IMG/VR virus record: IMGVR_UViG_3300009154_000010
Location: 1 to 39,756 of that record
Length of the DNA: 39,756 bases
Source: a virus
Strand: one strand, 5' to 3'
Shown: positions 10,198-34,987 of the stretch, one piece after another
How the letters are laid out: every line of letters begins with the position of its first letter
Position numbering within the stretch: the stretch's first letter is position 1
Position numbers and translations under genes: made by a program
The notes under the pieces: model-generated
What the model saw: only the letters and a program-made list of their open reading frames with translations
Database searches by the model: none
Told to the model about the DNA's origin: nothing

Positions 10198-12060
10198 TTA
10201 GTTGTATGCATAGTCACTTAAATTAACAGTGAACTGTTGGCTTTTGTCGTATCTTGTCTGAAACATATTTGTATAACTATGATTGCGAGCAAAGTTGCTT
10301 GCAGTTGAAACTCTATCTCGCACAGCAAGTTCGGTAAACCAAAATGCCATAACACAGTCTGTCTTTTGACTTCGTGGTGCCTCTGGGTACCAAGTAATCA
10401 GTTGTTCAATAAGAGCCTTTAATCCTTCGGATTGATGCGTTGAGGGGAACTCAATAAGGTTTAATCCTTCATCCCAACCATGAAACAATGTAGTAAGGGA
10501 TGCGACACCGAAATCTGTATCCCATTTATTGTTTCCAGTATGGTGTTCCTTTAGTATCGCACCCCTCGCTTGTAGGTATTCTCGTACCTCACGGTCCTGA
10601 GTTAACATCGCTTGAAATGCATTTTTTTCAACACGCCACTCAGAAATTGCGTACTTATCTGTCCAGTCTTTAATCAGTTCTCTAATCTCATCAGGCTTCA
10701 TGCCCTGTTTGTTAGACACATCCAGCACATATCTTTTTTGAGTAGCAACATCCACACCAATACAAACAGCAGCGGTATGCCCAGCCATGGCGGGGTCAAG
10801 CCCAGCAACCACAATAAGCCCATCCATCCCAGCAAGTCTGTTGCCAGCCTTATTCTTGGGGATGATGCCAATGTTGCGAGCGCCGTTAATAACGCCTTTA
10901 ACCGCATCCTGTGGGAAAGCGCTATCTTCATGAACTTGTTGTTGCTGATAAACCATCGCCCACAAGTTGGGTGACATGCGACTTCGTTTACGATTGAGCG
11001 CCGAGCCTGTCCACTTGTCGTAGAGTCCGTCAGAATCTGGAGTACCATTACCAGACACTGGGGGCATATTCGTCTTTGCCCAAAGAGTAACCCAATCATC
11101 AGGGTCATCGGCAAACTCCAATACCGCAGGTTGAGCAAAGTAAGTCCAAGGAGAAGTTTCATCGGGGTATCGCATCGGGTCACGAAGTTCTGAATATAAA
11201 TCTTTAGGGCGTAATCTTGTGCCCACTACCAGTAACTTTCCGCCATCGTTGTCAATACGGGACATAACTTCTGATTGAATCCAGTCAATCTGTTTTTCAT
11301 ATTCATGGGCGTTGGTATGGTCAACACAGTCATCCATGATGATTAGGTCAGCACGGGCACCGTAGATATGTCCACGAATACCAATAGCCTGAACCGTTGG
11401 GTCCTTTTCACCAGAGTCACGAGATTCTGATGATAGGTAAATTAAGTCCTGCTTCCACGAATCAGAGTTCTTTTCAAATCCGCCTGGAGGTCCAAAGGCG
11501 AGGTGTAAGTCCTGATAACGAGGATGGGTGAGTCTGTTCTTTATGGAGAGCAGGAACTTTTGCGCCATAGCCTGGGTCTTAGATACGACCATGATTCTTA
11601 TGTTAGGGTTTTGGCAAATCCGATAGACAGCATAGTTGACCGTAATAGTCGTAGACTTTGCGTGTTCAGGGGGAGTGTTAACAATGAGCAGGTCTTTATC
11701 GCCTGGCTCGTAAATGATTGAAGGGTGAACATCCGTAGGCACTCTGGACTCTAAAAGGTCAATCCAATGGCGTTGATGTTCAAATACTTGTACCCCTAGA
11801 TATTTTTCCGAGAACTCAGGAAATGGGGGCACCTCTTGGGTCGGACCGCCTATTTCACCTCTAGCGGTCAATGCACGCAGTTTGTCTATGCCTAGGGCAA
11901 AGTCAGGGTCTGTCTTGCGGTAATACTCATAAGTCTTGACACTTCTGCCCACGGCATCCATGGCTTTCTGGACTGAGTATCCCTGCATTAAAAAATCAAT
12001 AATCTGCTTCTTGATGGCATCCGACTTATGGGATGCAGCAGTAGTTCTTTTTCTTTCCAT
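10198..12060 (-). CDS. terL: Terminase large subunit, 620 aa, with N-terminal HTH-like domain
   Basis: This is the ATP-driven DNA packaging motor and headful or end-cutting nuclease. Visible motifs are a Walker A-like PPEHAKST at residues 130-137, Walker B LIIMDD at 239-244, and the nuclease-domain start VVAGLDPAMAGH with Asp422. Residues 1-65 form an extra helical, HTH-like segment (a QGYSVQKAMDAVGRSVKTYEYYR pattern interrupted by short turns) resembling small-terminase DNA-binding domains. No separate small terminase gene is seen nearby. It is the first gene of the leftward late unit, faces the 896-bp control region, and has no strong ribosome-binding site. Function is well supported; the HTH reading is an inference. 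Confidence 0.93.
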   Translation of the reverse strand: MERKRTTAASHKSDAIKKQIIDFLMQGYSVQKAMDAVGRSVKTYEYYRKTDPDFALGIDKLRALTARGEIGGPTQEVPPFPEFSEKYLGVQVFEHQRHWIDLLESRVPTDVHPSIIYEPGDKDLLIVNTPPEHAKSTTITVNYAVYRICQNPNIRIMVVSKTQAMAQKFLLSIKNRLTHPRYQDLHLAFGPPGGFEKNSDSWKQDLIYLSSESRDSGEKDPTVQAIGIRGHIYGARADLIIMDDCVDHTNAHEYEKQIDWIQSEVMSRIDNDGGKLLVVGTRLRPKDLYSELRDPMRYPDETSPWTYFAQPAVLEFADDPDDWVTLWAKTNMPPVSGNGTPDSDGLYDKWTGSALNRKRSRMSPNLWAMVYQQQQVHEDSAFPQDAVKGVINGARNIGIIPKNKAGNRLAGMDGLIVVAGLDPAMAGHTAAVCIGVDVATQKRYVLDVSNKQGMKPDEIRELIKDWTDKYAISEWRVEKNAFQAMLTQDREVREYLQARGAILKEHHTGNNKWDTDFGVASLTTLFHGWDEGLNLIEFPSTHQSEGLKALIEQLITWYPEAPRSQKTDCVMAFWFTELAVRDRVSTASNFARNHSYTNMFQTRYDKSQQFTVNLSDYAYN

Positions 12061-12070
12061 AGGCGTAGTA

Positions 12071-12268
12071 GCAATGCGACATTAAGGGAGCATTGCAGTT
12101 AATCCTTTCCTAACCGTAGGCTGTAGCCCCAAGGCGGAAGCCGAAGGTTAGGGCAATTACTAGGGAGGCTGCCTCAGGGCAGCCAGTGTGCTTTGCCGTA
12201 GGGCACAGATTATTTTGCCCTACATATACTATTAGGTGTCCAATGGACACTTCTTGGACATTTTTTTT
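12071..12268 (+). ncRNA. Candidate structured non-coding RNA ending in a T8 terminator
   Basis: Four structures follow one another on the plus strand. The main hairpin (12109-12152) has 7, 4 and 3 base pairs separated by two symmetric 3x3 internal loops (GTA/GAA and GTA/GGA) and a CCAA loop; all 14 pairs are Watson-Crick. The internal loops can form tandem G.A pairs on the plus strand but only U.C mismatches on the minus strand. Next come GGCTGCC/GGCAGCC (12167-12184) and GTAGGGCA/TGCCCTAC (12198-12223). A terminator hairpin then precedes eight T residues. The transcript start is unknown. A leader for the leftward terminase gene is the alternative, but only the plus strand has the U-tract. 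Confidence 0.5.
12237..12268 (+). terminator. Intrinsic terminator (or attenuator) with T8 tract
   Basis: TGTCCAA (12237-12243) pairs perfectly with TTGGACA (12254-12260) and is followed at once by eight T residues (12261-12268). An alternative hairpin, GTGTCC with GGACAC (12236-12250), uses part of the same sequence. Such mutually exclusive pairing is the layout of an attenuator. No plus-strand gene precedes it, which supports a short upstream RNA as its substrate. Confidence 0.65.
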
Positions 12269-12325
12269 GTAACTTTTTTATTACATTGCTACTGACCGCT
12301 ATAACCGCAGGTCAGAGCCTATTTA

Positions 12326-12408
12326 GACCCCAGGGCTATCAAAGTTATGTGGCTGTATACACAGACACACAGACACACAGATATTTAAAAACCTGGGGTC
12401 AAACTTTG
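12326..12408. promoter_or_regulatory. Interlocked inverted repeats (pseudoknot topology) around a CA-rich direct repeat
   Basis: GACCCCAGG (12326-12334) is complementary to CCTGGGGTC (12392-12400). CAAAGTT (12340-12346) is complementary to AACTTTG (12402-12408). The arms are ordered a-b-a'-b', which as RNA is an H-type pseudoknot rather than a nested hairpin. Between them a CACAGACA unit repeats about three times (about 12359-12382). As DNA the arms could be paired protein-binding sites. Confidence 0.4.
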
Positions 12409-12655
12409 CAGCCTGCTTTGCTCAGTTTAAACGCATGCTCGCATTGCATGCTGGCAGTGCAGCGCTAGGGCAGGGCAGGACTAGGCGCTGGCTTGGCGCT
12501 GACTCGCTCGGCGCATCAATAGCGCCCCGACCTAGCAATCGCAGCAGCAATCGCAGCGCATGTTTAAACTGGTTGAACTTTCAACTACTTTCCAGTGGCT
12601 CAGCCTGCATGCGTGGCATCTCACTATGTGAGATTCTCAGGATTGGCTTCATAAG

Positions 12656-12876
12656 TTACTCGCTGGTAACTCTCTAAAGTCAGTTGTTTAATATCACTTT
12701 AGAGCATCGCAACATTTCAACATCGCTAAAGTCAGCCAAAATCAATGGTTTTAGAGCCTTACTCGCCAGTAACTTATTTTTTTACACCCACCGCAGCATC
12801 ATCAATCGGAGGCAATCGCATCAACATCAACATCGGCAAAGTGCCCTAAAGTCAGTATAAATCAATGGTTTTAGAG
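12656..12876. repeat. Three 31-bp repeats and two 16-bp palindromes, possible iterons or operators
   Basis: The 31-bp elements are at 12674-12704, 12726-12756 and 12846-12876. All begin CTAAAGTCAG and end TTTAGAG or TTAGAG. The second and third share AAATCAATGGTTTTAGAG exactly and lie exactly 120 bp apart. In the first copy the arms CTCTAAAGT and ACTTTAGAG form a perfect 9-bp inverted repeat. Two related palindromes, TTACTCGCTGGTAACT (12656-12671) and TTACTCGCCAGTAACT (12759-12774), are interleaved with them. Repeated spaced palindromes between divergent units suggest an origin or a set of regulator sites. Confidence 0.6.
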
Positions 12877-12956
12877 GGTGCTTGTAATTTTTTTAAATCT
12901 CGTTTACCTTTATCCCAGTGGAACAATCCACTACCGACTGGAAAGGTTTAAACATC

Positions 12957-13484
12957 ATGAGAAATCGTGAACAATGGCTTGCAGCGTTTGCTACTGCTGC
13001 TCGCCGACCAATCGCATCATCAATCCAAGGTGGAGGTGACGAGGAGGCAGCAATCCGCCTATCTTGTGGCTTCCCTCCAAAAGTGGGTCGCAAGGCTTCC
13101 ACTGCTGCAATCGTGCCACCAACCGCATCTCAGGACTTCACTGCCGAGATTTTCGTGGCTCCTACCGTTGACTCATCATCCGAGGTTGCCAAGGCAATCC
13201 TCCCACTGCTCCGCATCGCTCAATCAGGCAACTGGCGCTCAGCAGCGCCAAGCGTTGCCAAGCCACTGGACACGCTCCCAGTGTGGGCTGAATCAATCAT
13301 CCTCACACTCGGCGAGTATCCACACGCCAAAATTGAAATTGCGCCAGCAATCAAGCAAACAACTCGCCTCATCAAGGTTGCGTGTTTAAACGACAACTAC
13401 ATCGCACGAGTATCTCGCTCAACTCTTGAGAATCTCGGCGCTCCAATCTGCCCAGCATGCAATCAATCACTCGTGGAGGCTTAA
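12957..13484 (+). CDS. SprT-like family protein lacking the HExxH metalloprotease motif, 175 aa
   Basis: The order IRLSCGFP (residues 33-40), TAEIFVAPTVDSSSEVAKAIL (62-82), a LGEYPHAKIE segment (118-127) and a C-terminal Zn-ribbon-like end match a family of putative phage metallopeptidases. Its members read RVSCGWPS, EIFISP, VLxHELVHAAVG, LGxYPHA and CPECGYIAR. Here the HELVH position reads ILPLLRIAQSG, so the zinc-protease motif is gone. The ribbon keeps Cys143, Cys165 and Cys168 but has lost the fourth cysteine (CLNDNYIAR). The start at 12957 follows GGAAAGG; GTTTAAAC fills the spacer between that site and the ATG. It is the first gene of the early operon. It is probably non-catalytic, perhaps a binding or regulatory relic. 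Confidence 0.7.
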   Translation: MRNREQWLAAFATAARRPIASSIQGGGDEEAAIRLSCGFPPKVGRKASTAAIVPPTASQDFTAEIFVAPTVDSSSEVAKAILPLLRIAQSGNWRSAAPSVAKPLDTLPVWAESIILTLGEYPHAKIEIAPAIKQTTRLIKVACLNDNYIARVSRSTLENLGAPICPACNQSLVEA

Positions 13485-13486
13485 TC

Positions 13487-14230
13487 ATGACTACTTTCGG
13501 ACTAGAGTTTGAGGTCGCTGGACTCTCAACATCAGCAGCATCAGCAGCGCTCAATCGTGGCGGAATCGCTTGCGAGGAGCCACGCAATCAGCACATCGTC
13601 AACGAGAAGTGGACATCGGTCTATGACGGCTCAGTTCGTGGAGCCGAGGTCGTGTCACCAATCCTTGACCCAATCCGTTTAAACGAGGCTTCAACCGTTG
13701 CTCGCTTGCTCCTCGGAGCAGGTGGCAAGGTTGACCGCACAACTGGCTTCCATGTCCACATCGGAGCAGCAGAATTGACCCACGAGCACATCGCCCAGTG
13801 GTACATCAACTGGAATCTGCACCATGATGCAATCGGTGTGCTCGTTGCGCCAAGCCGTTTAAACAACCGTTTCTGCTCAGCGCTTGACCAAGCAGCAACC
13901 AATCGCAACGCCGAAAGAATCCGCAACGGCAACATCTCGGACTTCAACGGTGACCGCTACCACTCTTTCAATCTCCAATCCTTCCAACGCCATGGCACGC
14001 TGGAAATCCGCCTACATCAAGGCACACTTAACGGAGCAAAAGCCGTTGCGTGGGCAAAGTTCATTGATGCGTTTAAACAACTCAGCGAGAGCCGAATCAT
14101 CGGTGACCTCGGCACTGGCACCAACCTCCAAAAGTGCGAGAATCTCCTAGACCTGCTCCGCATCAACGGAAATCTTGACGAGCGCACCGCCAACTATCTC
14201 AAAGACCGAGCAGCATCCCTCAACGGATAG
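13487..14230 (+). CDS. Amidoligase family enzyme (glutamine synthetase-like fold), 247 aa
   Basis: Amidoligases of this class use ATP to join a carboxylate to an amine, forming an amide or peptide-like bond. Visible family features are GLEFEV at residues 5-10, DGS at 47-49, EVVSP at 54-58, GFHVHIG at 87-93 and TLEIRLHQGTL at 171-181. Together these give the acidic and His residues expected of the metal/ATP site of the GS fold. GGAGG precedes the ATG at 13487, two bases after the previous stop. A stand-alone glutamine amidotransferase follows 400 bp downstream and could supply ammonia or a glutamyl group. The substrate is unknown. Three GTTTAAAC copies lie within the gene. Confidence 0.8.
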   Translation: MTTFGLEFEVAGLSTSAASAALNRGGIACEEPRNQHIVNEKWTSVYDGSVRGAEVVSPILDPIRLNEASTVARLLLGAGGKVDRTTGFHVHIGAAELTHEHIAQWYINWNLHHDAIGVLVAPSRLNNRFCSALDQAATNRNAERIRNGNISDFNGDRYHSFNLQSFQRHGTLEIRLHQGTLNGAKAVAWAKFIDAFKQLSESRIIGDLGTGTNLQKCENLLDLLRINGNLDERTANYLKDRAASLNG

Positions 14231-14239
14231 CAGCAGGCA

Positions 14240-14284
14240 GCCTGCCCCAAGTGGGTAAGCGAGGGAGCGTTACCCTCGGCAGGC
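14240..14284 (+). other. Two-stem RNA hairpin in the gap after the amidoligase gene
   Basis: GCCTGCC (14240-14246) pairs with GGCAGGC (14278-14284), and inside it GGGTAA (14253-14258) pairs with TTACCC (14270-14275). No T-tract follows, so it is not a standard terminator. It lies between the amidoligase and a tiny membrane-protein gene and may stabilise, process or attenuate the transcript. Confidence 0.5.
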
Positions 14285-14336
14285 ACAAACGGAATCGGGA
14301 AATCCTCGGTACCGTTTAAACGAAAGGACTGGAATC

Positions 14337-14450
14337 ATGAACAGCATCAACTACTGGTCAATCATTGATGGTCGTGTGCTTCTACTGCTGGCAATCATTG
14401 CTGGCGTGTGGGTTCATTACCTACTGACAGGTAACAATCATGGCGAATAA
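14337..14450 (+). CDS. Small single-pass membrane protein, 37 aa
   Basis: The reading frame begins MNSINYWSIIDGR and continues with a hydrophobic stretch (VLLLLAIIAGVWVHYLL, residues 14-30), so it should span the membrane once with a short polar tail. AAAGGACTGGAATC precedes the ATG, a reasonable ribosome-binding site. It overlaps the next gene by 11 nt. No family is recognised. Small early membrane proteins in phages often alter host envelope or division functions, but nothing here shows that. Confidence 0.55.
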   Translation: MNSINYWSIIDGRVLLLLAIIAGVWVHYLLTGNNHGE

Positions 14451-14616
14451 TAACAAAAAGTTATACATCGTTGAAGGTGTAGATTTCTATGGGCGAAAGT
14501 TCACTGGACTATACACAGAAACAGAGGCTCGGTACCTCGCAGCCACTGACCGTTTAAACACAGTGTATGACCGCACAACACAGGTTGTGGTACACTTCAC
14601 TCAACAGACCAACTAA
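14440..14616 (+). CDS. Hypothetical protein, 58 aa
   Basis: The protein starts MANNNKKLYIVEGVDFYGRKFTGLY and reads as a small alternating beta-strand domain (LYIVEGVD, VVVHFTQQTN). It begins inside the preceding gene and ends 28 bp before the glutamine amidotransferase. One GTTTAAAC at 14552 is read as Leu-Asn. No family is recognised. Confidence 0.6.
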   Translation: MANNNKKLYIVEGVDFYGRKFTGLYTETEARYLAATDRLNTVYDRTTQVVVHFTQQTN

Positions 14617-14644
14617 CAACTAACACAGACTGGAGAAATAAATT

Positions 14645-15451
14645 ATGTGTGGAATCGCAGGCTTCTGCCTTAACCCAAAGCACAACAACAATCAGGTTGA
14701 CCTTGCATCGCAGATGCTCATGGACATTGAACATCGTGGCTATCACGCCACAGGTGCAGCATGGATTAACCCAAAGACTGGGCATCGTGTAATCACCAAA
14801 GCGCCAGTGGCTGCAACCAAGTTCATCACGACAGATGCAGGCAAGCGAATCTGTTTAAACGCACAGACCGCTATCTTGCACACTCGTTGGGCAACTCAAG
14901 GTGACCCAAAGGTTAACGACAACAACCACCCAATCCCTCGTGGCAAGATTGTGTTGACACACAACGGACACATCAGCAACGATGACCAACTGTTTAAACA
15001 ACTCAAGGTCAAGCGCCATGGTCAGGTAGATAGCGAGGCAGTCGCAGCACTGATTGCATTTACATCAGCGCCCATTGCCGAGGTGCTCTCTCGTGTACAA
15101 GGCACTGCTGCCTTGGCTTGGATTGAACAGAACAAGGGCAACACATTGCACCTTGCTCGTATTAACTCATCGCCATTGTGGATTGGTCAGACCAAGACAG
15201 GCTCGCTCGTCTATGGTTCAACCGAGGACACCATTGAGAACGCATCTATCATGCTTGATTCAGTGCTTGACTGGGCATACGCAGCAGCCGAGGGTGAATA
15301 CTTCAAGGTTAAAGACGGCAAGATTGTGGAGCATCAGAACTTCACACCGTTTAAACAAGTGTATGCCAACAACTGGCGCAAGTATTCTTCTAGTAACTGG
15401 GATGATGAGCACGAGTACGCATCTAGTTATTACGACAAGCACCTGTTCTAA
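14645..15451 (+). CDS. Stand-alone class II glutamine amidotransferase, 268 aa
   Basis: Class II glutaminase domains release ammonia from glutamine with an N-terminal cysteine. The protein begins MCGIAGF, so Cys2 becomes the nucleophile after Met removal. HRGYHATG at 30-37, LHTRWATQGD and THNGHISND match the glutamine-binding and oxyanion motifs (compare HRGxDxxG, RWAT and HNG in GlmS/PurF-type enzymes). No synthetase, isomerase or transferase domain follows, so it probably works with a partner. The amidoligase upstream in the same operon is the obvious candidate. GGAGAAATAAATT precedes the start, and a strong terminator lies 40 bp after the stop. Confidence 0.85.
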   Translation: MCGIAGFCLNPKHNNNQVDLASQMLMDIEHRGYHATGAAWINPKTGHRVITKAPVAATKFITTDAGKRICLNAQTAILHTRWATQGDPKVNDNNHPIPRGKIVLTHNGHISNDDQLFKQLKVKRHGQVDSEAVAALIAFTSAPIAEVLSRVQGTAALAWIEQNKGNTLHLARINSSPLWIGQTKTGSLVYGSTEDTIENASIMLDSVLDWAYAAAEGEYFKVKDGKIVEHQNFTPFKQVYANNWRKYSSSNWDDEHEYASSYYDKHLF

Positions 15452-19571: not shown

Positions 19572-20189
19572 TTAAACGCCCGCCCTCTTACGCAAACCAT
19601 CTGCGCCTTCCATTAGGTAGACATCGTTAACATCCTGACCCTCAGGCATGAACACAGGGAATACATTGTCTAGTTCTCTACTTAAATGTTTAGCCATCTC
19701 ACGCCCTGCGTTGTCACCATCGCACAGCAAGATAACCTTTGACCAATCAGCAAGCACACGAGAATAAAAAGATTTCCAGTTGTTAGCCCCAGGCAAACCA
19801 ACCGCACTGAACCCTGCTTGTGTAGCAACAACAGTATCAAGTTCACCTTCACAGATAGCAAGCACTTCGGAGTCATCACCCAGTGCGCCGATGTTAAAGA
19901 TGTGTGTCGTAGCCCCTGGTCTACTCATGTATTTCGGACCTGTATCTGCGTTTAAACTACGGAAGCGGATGTCAATGACTCCTGTTGGTGTGATGTATGG
20001 GATTGCTAACTTGCCAGTGTAAGGCTCGTGTCCAATCTCAGGCTCTCTTACGAAGCCGAGGCGAAATGTACGAGCGGTCTGTTCTGTGATACCTCTGCTC
20101 GTCAGGTACGGAAGTATCTCCGCTAGGTTTCTTTCGTAGTTCTCCGTTGCTCTCGCCAGTAATTCTTTCTGCGATTTGCTTAGCCTCAT
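19572..20189 (-). CDS. DnaG-like primase, TOPRIM catalytic half, 205 aa
   Basis: The TOPRIM motifs are clear: AICEGELDTV with Glu115, then ILLCDGDNAGREMAKHL with Asp157 and Asp159. The N-terminal part (YLTSRGITEQTARTF, LAIPYITPTGVIDIRFR, GPKYM) is the usual region before TOPRIM. There is no zinc domain; that is encoded by the overlapping upstream gene in another frame. The ATG at 20189 (or a TTG at 20198) lies 150 nt before the upstream stop. It makes RNA primers for phage DNA replication. A frameshifted fusion with the zinc half is possible. Confidence 0.88.
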   Translation of the reverse strand: MRLSKSQKELLARATENYERNLAEILPYLTSRGITEQTARTFRLGFVREPEIGHEPYTGKLAIPYITPTGVIDIRFRSLNADTGPKYMSRPGATTHIFNIGALGDDSEVLAICEGELDTVVATQAGFSAVGLPGANNWKSFYSRVLADWSKVILLCDGDNAGREMAKHLSRELDNVFPVFMPEGQDVNDVYLMEGADGLRKRAGV

Positions 20190-20415
20190 TAAACCCAACT
20201 CCTTCTCGTTTCATAATAAGTGAATACACATCACCAGCCATCTCACAACCAAAGCAACGGAAGCCACCGTTGTCTATGTTTAAACGGGCTGACTTAACTC
20301 TATCACCATGGAAAGCGCAGCGCAGTGTGAACCAGCCACGCCTACCATGTGGTATCTTAAATCCATAGTGCTCAAGAACTTTAACGATGTCATGTTTAGA
20401 GTTTTGCAAGGACAT
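20038..20415 (-). CDS. Primase zinc-binding half (CHC2-like), 125 aa
   Basis: CAFHGD (Cys33-x2-His36) and FRCFGCEMAGD (Cys54-x2-Cys57) form the CHC2 zinc finger of DnaG primases, followed by the conserved helix (NEAKQIAERI). After residue about 88 the sequence turns into an Arg/Ser/Pro-rich tail (ELRKKPSGDTSVPDEQRYH). That tail is the out-of-frame reading of the start of the TOPRIM gene, so it may be unstructured or bypassed by frameshifting. The start overlaps the resolvase end by 20 nt. Confidence 0.85.
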   Translation of the reverse strand: MSLQNSKHDIVKVLEHYGFKIPHGRRGWFTLRCAFHGDRVKSARLNIDNGGFRCFGCEMAGDVYSLIMKREGVGFNEAKQIAERITGESNGELRKKPSGDTSVPDEQRYHRTDRSYISPRLRKRA

Positions 20416-20761
20416 CACCCAGTCGTTGAACTACATAGGCATCCTCAATTCCTTTGTTAGATGCCTTGATAATTACCAATGGTGTTGGTGTTACCTTCAT
20501 GTTCTTAGACTTACGATAGTTCTCTGCTTCAACATACGCTTCACGCAACCAACCCGACAGGTCAACCTTGCCGTCACGCCTTGGTGCCTTGGCTTCAACC
20601 ACATAGATGTCGTTGGTTGCTGGTAGAAATACATCACCAATGTCATTGCGACCAGCACGAGGTAAGCGTTGTGCGTTTAAACCCTGTTGCATAAACCAAT
20701 CAGCAAGGTCAATCTCAAATGCTGCACCTCTACGCTTGTTACTCTGCTGTTGCGTTGCCAT
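20396..20761 (-). CDS. Holliday-junction resolvase-like nuclease, 121 aa
   Basis: Hjc-type PD-(D/E)xK signature: RRGAAFEIDLADWF with Glu16, RLPRAGRNDIGDVFLP with Asp43, and YVVEAKAP with Glu57-x-Lys59. It cleaves branched DNA during phage recombination or before packaging. I set the start at 20761, where AAAGGAG precedes the ATG; a longer frame upstream lies inside the glycosyltransferase gene. It overlaps genes on both sides. Confidence 0.82.
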   Translation of the reverse strand: MATQQQSNKRRGAAFEIDLADWFMQQGLNAQRLPRAGRNDIGDVFLPATNDIYVVEAKAPRRDGKVDLSGWLREAYVEAENYRKSKNMKVTPTPLVIIKASNKGIEDAYVVQRLGDVLAKL

Positions 20762-34260: not shown

Positions 34261-34428
34261 TTACTTGCCCTTCTTTTTCATAAGCATTGACATGCCTACT
34301 TTAGTTTCTCTAGACTTTTCAGCCTTTGATTCTCCAGTTTTCTTTTCTTTTGCCTTAATAGCCTTAGGCTCTTTCTTTTCGTACGCTGCGTACGCTGCTG
34401 CCTTTGACGGCTTTTTTGCTGCTGCCAT
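34261..34428 (-). CDS. Small Lys/Ala/Glu-rich protein, 55 aa
   Basis: The frame reads MAAAKKPSKAAAYAAYEKKE, continues with alternating Lys and Glu, and ends GMSMLMKKKGK. GGGGAAACACAA precedes the ATG at 34428. Its first 65 nt overlap the end of the protease-like gene in another frame; both readings are Lys/Ser/Ala-rich there. It is probably a disordered or helical DNA-binding or capsid-internal peptide. Confidence 0.6.
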   Translation of the reverse strand: MAAAKKPSKAAAYAAYEKKEPKAIKAKEKKTGESKAEKSRETKVGMSMLMKKKGK

Positions 34429-34987
34429 TTGTGTTTCCCCTTTGTGTGATTACTTTGACATCTCCACCAACACTTATGCAGTAATCGGCAGAAATCTTGA
34501 TTGCTCTGCGAGCAGCAAACTCTGCTGCTTTCATAGAGTTCTTACTGAACCCAGTGGCTAGTGCACCTAGTGCAAGTGAGCCACCGCTACCTACGGCATA
34601 CAATCCACGGTCATCTTTAGACCAGAGGTAGTCTTGGTCTATTTCATAAATGATTCCGTTTAAACAAATAAGAGCATCAAATCCTGCTTCTTTATCTGCC
34701 GTGTCTGGCGTATAGCCATTGTCTTTCATTGCTTCACGCAGGGAAGGTAATACTTTTGTTTGCATGAATACATCTGTTGGTGTTGTCTTAATAACCTTGG
34801 GTGGTATCCAAAGAAAGTTTGCTATGTTGCCAGCAATGGCATCGCCTGAGAAGGCAAATACATAATCACCCTTGCGTACTACCTTGTCAATACTTTTTGT
34901 ATAGTAAGGCTTGTCATCATAGGTAGTCATGGAATCTGCTGCTATTACCGCCCAGCCTTTTCCCTGAATACCTACGATGGCAGTCAT
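34364..34987 (-). CDS. Proteasome beta/HslV-like Ntn-hydrolase protease, 207 aa
   Basis: The protein begins MTAIVGIQGKGWAVIAADSM. With Met removed, Thr1 is the nucleophile, Asp17 lies in AADS, and the Lys33-equivalent lies in SIDKVV (one position shifted). FAFSGD, LYAVGSGGSLALGAL and KISADYCISVGGDV match the HslV/proteasome strands (compare AGFAGG, AIGSGG and IAGDICIYT). All catalytic positions seem present. The C-terminus has a basic 25-residue tail. It lies two genes after the coat gene, where head maturation proteases often sit. Assembly as a ring, and its substrates, are unknown. Confidence 0.85.
   Translation of the reverse strand: MTAIVGIQGKGWAVIAADSMTTYDDKPYYTKSIDKVVRKGDYVFAFSGDAIAGNIANFLWIPPKVIKTTPTDVFMQTKVLPSLREAMKDNGYTPDTADKEAGFDALICLNGIIYEIDQDYLWSKDDRGLYAVGSGGSLALGALATGFSKNSMKAAEFAARRAIKISADYCISVGGDVKVITQRGNTNGSSKKAVKGSSVRSVRKERA

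Follow-up and report, generated by a model that had tools for sequence, protein, structure and literature searches.

A conserved hairpin array next to the terminase gene of putative freshwater actinophages, possibly a DNA element of the genome end

What occupies the gene-free interval beside the large terminase gene of this virus, and does it act as RNA or as DNA? The window, that is, the whole stretch of DNA analyzed, is a 39,756-base IMG/VR virus record that codes for a WhiB protein, a sigma-70 region 4 protein, and a large terminase. An earlier note had read positions 12071 to 12268 as a novel structured RNA closed by a T8 terminator, with the profile of an abundant small phage RNA. The interval lies between terL, on the minus strand, and plus-strand open reading frames, the first starting at 12918. 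It adjoins the terminase gene and holds no open reading frame of 60 or more amino acids, in agreement with that note. The features of the region are as follows (clades A and B are defined below).

10198 to 12060, minus strand: terL, large terminase subunit (Terminase_6C; phrog_38, 5.5e-66), reading away from the element
12071 to 12096, unstranded: P1, perfect 7-bp stem (GCAATGC/GCATTGC) with the 12-nt loop GACATTAAGGGA; module consensus G.AATTATGGGA
12109 to 12152, plus strand: P2, 7+4+3 = 14 Watson-Crick pairs with two 3x3 purine loops (GNA/GNA on the plus strand)
12167 to 12184, unstranded: P3, 7-bp stem (GGCTGCC/GGCAGCC) with the loop TCAG
12198 to 12223, unstranded: P4, 8-bp stem in the window (GTAGGGCA/TGCCCTAC)
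12224 to 12235, unstranded: conserved TATA-like stretch, ATATACTATTAG (ATATAAGATAACC in clade B), a candidate -10 element for terL on the minus strand
12236 to 12261, unstranded: P5, dyad GTGTCCA-N12-TGGACAT, with conserved arms and a spacer that varies in sequence and is fixed in length
12261 to 12268, plus strand: T8 tract, not conserved
12392 to 12403, unstranded: CCTGGGGTCAAA motif, placed inside the terminal repeat by analogy; the inner repeat boundary would lie shortly leftward

The hairpin at 12109-12152 has the 14 pairs in three helices and the two 3x3 loops previously described, and the two further hairpins at 12167-12184 and 12198-12223 are also present; P1, at 12071-12096, had no separate entry before and is added here. 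Folded as RNA, the plus strand reaches -81.3 kcal/mol, compared to a shuffle mean of -58.5 (z -5.0; 0 of 200 shuffles that low), and the minus strand gives z -3.7; with DNA energies the scores are z -5.4 for the plus strand and z -4.6 for the minus strand. Both strands fold well, and so fold energy picks neither. A scan of the window against Rfam 15 returned no match at gathering thresholds, and relaxed thresholds gave insignificant matches only, the best at E 0.21 and below threshold.

An exact 20-mer search placed the element in at least 67 contigs. A terL search combined with a looser pattern then yielded at least 133 distinct parsed elements, which form clade A, and a search with the terL of locus L152, again with a pattern, yielded at least 111 distinct elements of clade B, whose terL is about 47% identical to that of clade A. 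The order of parts is the same in clade B: hairpins, a GNA-type P2, P4, the TATA-like stretch, and the dyad with a spacer of about 14 nt. The position is fixed as well. Among the matches listed, terL lies antisense and 41 to 54 nt off in each of the 216 clade A occurrences whose flank is long enough, and likewise in 161 of 168 clade B occurrences, 6 of the 7 exceptions having <600 nt of flank. A pattern scan of bacterial genomes gave 15 scattered matches in unrelated organisms, which we judged to be chance.

The Nanopelagicales are one of the most abundant groups of freshwater bacteria, and to our knowledge their phages have hardly been studied so far. Locus L152 is an isolated phage, Planktophila phage LanE43AprE7 (phage E7; OX376640), whose isolation host is given as a member of ‘Ca. 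Nanopelagicales’ in PMC10202952; the parts read of that paper, which covers the isolated relatives, do not mention the element. Since the relatives of the window include this isolate, an acI-type host is likely for the window phage too, and the element, judged by these sequence relatives, is strongly conserved in a freshwater family of actinobacterial viruses that is very common. A DNA similarity search of the window against named phages gave no match. Other genes of the window deserve mention in their own right. A Proteasome-subunit/HslV-like protein (34364-34987, minus strand; PF00227, 3e-7; phrog_1040, 6e-24) is flanked by structural genes and is possibly a prohead protease of unusual type. 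At 13457-15451 on the plus strand lie an Amidoligase_2 protein and, after it, a protein with a class II glutamine amidotransferase domain; as a pair, the two may modify cell walls or peptides. A DnaG-type primase (CHC2 zinc finger and toprim) is spread across two overlapping open reading frames at 19572-20418 on the minus strand, which may reflect a true split, a frameshift, or a sequencing error.

Covariation in relatives, the check that the earlier note had proposed, came out strongly. Using a parser that retains fully paired stems only, and that found P1, P3, and P4 in 131, 133, and 133 of the 133 clade A elements, we obtained 17 different arm pairs for P1, 19 for P3 (6-bp arms), and 7 for P4; among the matches listed, pairing was 100% Watson-Crick, compared to 55%, 56%, and 75% for P1, P3, and P4 with shuffled partners. 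The P2 arms also covary: clade B has GGATTAACC, GAACTTGC, GGAGTCGC, CGTCGC, and others, each with its complement, and CTAACC is also found among the P2 arms. Because these compensatory changes are so strong, a selected, structured, and uncatalogued noncoding element is supported, and this much of the earlier proposal of a novel structured RNA stands. Its identity as a plus-strand RNA does not fare as well, for the stems lack G-U pairs and conserved loops occur on either strand. A mismatch-tolerant parser, applied to distinct clade A arms (about 308 stem cells), found 0 G-U pairs and one C-A, the latter at an outer stem edge where the stem is probably one pair shorter. For comparison, the 11 tRNAs in the collected loci have G-U in 26 of 233 pairs (Fisher p 1e-10 against the element stems), tRNAs being an imperfect control for wobble frequency.

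The loops of P1 and P4 bear on the choice of strand. The P1 loop consensus reads GAAATTATGGGA on the plus strand, and the P4 loop consensus reads GAAATAATTGGA on the minus strand. In relatives, P4 has 7 bp and a 12-nt loop and corresponds to the P1 module, in most cases turned to the other strand. Scored against a profile derived from the P1 loops themselves, P4 loops give -2.3 on the minus strand, -4.9 on the plus strand, and -9.1 (sd 0.9) when shuffled. A single 7-bp/12-nt module (7-12-7) thus seems to be present twice, as P1 and as P4, usually in mutually inverted orientation. Some window-like P4 loops score poorly, including the window's own AAAATAATCTGT at -5.8, so that the module is looser in P4; the P1 loop module occurs as a single copy within the window. 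Over 116 loci, P4 is in the minus orientation in 75 and in the plus orientation in 17. Mapping the plus state of P4 on a tree of terL DNA (116 rows) requires 4 changes, with well-supported branches forcing at least 2 of them. In two loci (L163 and L173) the P1 loop matches on the minus strand only, at 8.9 and 13.8 bits, against a random 99th percentile of 2.75. In clade B, the H1 hairpin, CCTAC-NNN-GTAGG, has GAA 20 times and TTC 6 times.

Cruciform or duplex DNA can accommodate a conserved loop that sits on either strand, which is not what an RNA read from one strand would show; a cruciform is indifferent to the inversion of a loop, and the flips of P1, P4, and H1 thus count for DNA. Our preferred but tentative reading, on which we stop just short of an even call, is that the element would act in cis at the DNA level, in replication or in the processing of genome ends, and be recognized in the form of extruded hairpins. 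Some observations speak against a DNA element: P2 never flips, its purine loops being fixed to the plus strand; the P4 stems of clade B are short and AT-rich; and the element lies in the presumed 5' leader of terL. Perfect stems and loop inversions can also arise through template switching in DNA synthesis, even where function is at the RNA level.

The shared 7-12-7 geometry of P1, P4, and P5, with its rigid spacing, would also suit an array of double-stranded operator sites in which dimeric regulators bind half-sites about 19 to 20 bp apart. P5, with its conserved arms and variable spacer, has that character, and an operator may well be the right reading for P5 alone. For the array as a whole we think it quite improbable, because the arms of P1, P3, and P4 vary freely while remaining paired, unlike what is expected when a half-site sequence is recognized.

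P2 behaves differently from the other hairpins. Its 3x3 loops in the window are GUA/GAA and GUA/GGA on the plus strand, where sheared G-A pairs are possible, and UNC/UNC on the minus strand, where they are not; the plus-only tandem sheared pairs of the earlier note are therefore a sound observation, and a conserved one. In both clades GNA/GNA is kept on the plus strand while the arms change compensatorily, and P2 was never flipped in the set, for which the clade A search patterns covered the plus orientation only. On present sequences, these purine loops are the strongest remaining evidence for what would be a strand-specific plus-strand fold. Single-stranded DNA can form them too, so P2 does not separate RNA from single-stranded DNA. 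Phage N4 has DNA hairpins that extrude at physiological supercoiling, driven by C-GNA-G loops in which G and A form a sheared pair (PMC4496689). In clade B, the apical loop of P2 can pair with sequence just downstream, with covariation (ATCAAAG/CTTTGAT and ATTAAAG/CTTTAAT; loci L299, L304, and L320), a possible pseudoknot or switch. The ATCAAAG/CTTTGAT pairing occurs in L299 and L320, another alternative pairing of the P2 loop is GCCCTAA/TTAGGGC, and the strand signals of these pairings conflict.

For a discrete plus-strand small RNA of about 190 nt, serving packaging, anti-host, or regulatory roles, the conserved P2 loops are one argument. Of 36 clade A representatives, 35 also have the better fold on the plus strand, the minus strand being worse by 9 kcal/mol on average, and the gene geometry, directed to the genome end, resembles that of phi29 pRNA. 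Clade B has no fold advantage for the plus strand, and the minimum-energy comparison of strands is ambiguous between the clades. We consider such an RNA improbable. The stems have 0 G-U, the loops flip strands, and no Rfam family was recovered at gathering score, the relaxed matches being insignificant. By analogy with Streptomyces phages that have 276- and 263-bp repeats, the transcript would run toward the genome end. Its promoter would be expected within the start of terL, where variation at synonymous sites is not suppressed in codons 6 to 60: diversity over codons 1 to 60 is 0.38 to 0.46, compared to about 0.35 to 0.56 over most other codons, and strong constraint is limited to a few codons at the very beginning. 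No plus-strand promoter is therefore indicated there.

The T8 tract, which had been taken as the terminator of such an RNA, is not a feature of the element. Among the matches listed, 5 of the 133 distinct elements in clade A, one being a copy of the window, and 0 of 111 from clade B have at least seven T residues in a row after P5. What is conserved at this site is the dyad GTGTCC-N14-GGACA, with a spacing of 14 in 133 of 133 parsed elements among the matches listed; it is the only full match in the window, where no further copies beyond chance are found. With promoter constraint lacking, no G-U, loops on either strand, and T8 not conserved, the abundant plus-strand phage RNA of the earlier note is not supported. 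T-rich sequence after P5 (58 of 133 clade A elements, among the matches listed) and the strong GC hairpins might instead suggest a terminator cluster or an insulator between divergent transcription units. This we regard as very improbable: the flanking units are divergent rather than convergent, and neither P1 to P4 nor clade B has T tracts.

The main rival to the DNA element is a structured 5' leader RNA of the terL operon, read from the minus strand and starting near the base of P4, with a role such as antitermination of a long late operon or control of terL translation. The element is always directly upstream of terL and in the same place, and the TATA-like stretch and the fixed dyad stand at its far side, on the correct side for a terL promoter and at a constant distance from P4. 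The region at 12224-12261 probably contains this promoter, P5 being operator- or -35-like as well as a weak hairpin. No sigma-70 consensus promoter was found in the region, that consensus being uninformative for this host. Three clade B loci have tRNA genes for Trp, Arg, and Ser in the terL sense between the element and terL (L294, 1757-1829; L309, 1518-1591; L311, 324-410), which makes minus-strand transcription through the region likely, and the element is probably also transcribed as part of the presumed terL leader. One clade B lineage (L273/L279) has a strand-informative change, A-C on the plus strand and G-U on the minus strand, that favors the leader. It is nevertheless rather doubtful that the structure serves as leader RNA, given stems without G-U, conserved loops that flip strands, P2 internal loops that read UNC/UNC on the minus strand, and a minus strand that in clade A folds worse by the 9 kcal/mol given above. 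Among the matches listed, 18 of 124 elements in clade A and 2 of 113 in clade B have CRP/GlxR-like palindromes (TGTGAN6TCACA), set at a constant distance upstream of the TATA when read in the terL sense. They lie between the dyad and the terminal repeat (loci L106, L108, L116, L150, and L465 among others), and Streptomyces Beephvirinae have two copies. We rejected them as a defining part, as few elements carry them and none is found beside the window element.

The ends of the window phage are placed by analogy. The Streptomyces phages Manuel and Stella have direct terminal repeats of 276 and 263 bp, and in Streptomyces relatives with known ends the hairpin region lies beside terL, just inside the repeat. 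The order in nine Beephvirinae is terL, covarying hairpins, TATATATA, a GTC...GGGAC dyad, two GTGTGA-type boxes, and a conserved GGGACTCACTCC at the repeat boundary; the 276-bp repeat of Manuel carries CCTGGGGTCC near its inner edge. Hairpins, a TATA, the dyad, and the boundary thus come in the order proposed for the window, a point in favor of the DNA element. The window element would by this comparison lie just inside the left terminal repeat. An inverted repeat, TTAGACCCCAGG/CCTGGGGTCAAA, spans 12323-12403 near the presumed inner edge, and a TGGGGTC motif recurs in the Streptomyces relatives. Farther along, at 12651-12777 in the presumed terminal-repeat region, there are a 52-nt imperfect inverted repeat and CTAAAGTCAG direct repeats. 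A 344-bp, 95% identical overlap between the ends of one contig (G001) was set aside as proof of a terminal repeat, an assembly overlap being conceivable.

As a DNA element, the region would work as follows. A linear genome of 40 kb would carry several perfect palindromes in the interval from terL to the left terminal repeat, beside the TATA-plus-dyad region. When the phage DNA is supercoiled or replicating, these palindromes would extrude as hairpins or cruciforms, and their conserved loops, i.e., the 12-nt module of P1 and P4 and the C-GNA-G motifs of P2, would be recognized by a protein of the phage or of the host. This recognition would mark the junction, either for the start of replication or for the processing of concatemers into direct-repeat ends, and might also tune the terL promoter. 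The full combination, in which a strictly Watson-Crick hairpin array with an either-strand protein-recognition loop motif is a new genome-end element, read as cruciform DNA for replication start or terminal-repeat formation in a globally abundant actinophage family, is possible, and we put it forward with considerable reserve. For the signal that directs replication or packaging in this family, an end-proximal element present in every complete clade A copy examined would be a prime candidate. Stems with zero wobble and strand-flipped loops also provide a worked example of how genome scans, in which such DNA elements are easily mislabeled as noncoding RNA, can tell a DNA hairpin from a structured RNA.

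Among known systems, phi29 pRNA is likewise short and structured and located at one end of a podovirus genome, and a plus-strand transcript here would point endward. It differs in that the window phage has a conventional two-domain TerL (620 aa, with ATPase and RNase H-like parts), the loops flip, and no plus-strand promoter was found; the partner of the phi29 type, a small gp16-type packaging ATPase in a terminal-protein phage, is not what these phages have, the Streptomyces relatives having direct terminal repeats. The put antitermination RNA of HK022 is a further hairpin structure, likewise placed where a long phage operon begins. The present loops, unlike put, are strand-flipped and the stems lack G-U, and the terL leader transcript is putative. 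DNA hairpins as cis signals are already known from N4, and the present element is without an Rfam family. The early-promoter hairpins of N4 are recognized by the virion RNA polymerase. They resemble our element in having conserved inverted repeats with free arms and a conserved loop; the C-GNA-G loop recurs in H1 of clade B (CCTAC-GAA-GTAGG), and the P2 internal loops have the same flanks, GNA being found in the window in P2 only. Unlike N4, the P1 and P4 loops are 12 nt, there is a single site, beside terL, and no virion RNA polymerase is recognized here: the proteins scanned by Pfam/PDB sequence search included no RNA polymerase, a 2027-aa protein being without a Pfam or PDB match. In T7 and T3, processing of the terminal repeats involves pacB and hairpin-ended concatemer intermediates, and cis DNA is needed for the repeat ends. 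The present element differs in being a multi-hairpin array next to terL and agrees with the T7/T3 processing region in being, on our reading, cis-acting DNA with palindromes just inside the left terminal repeat.
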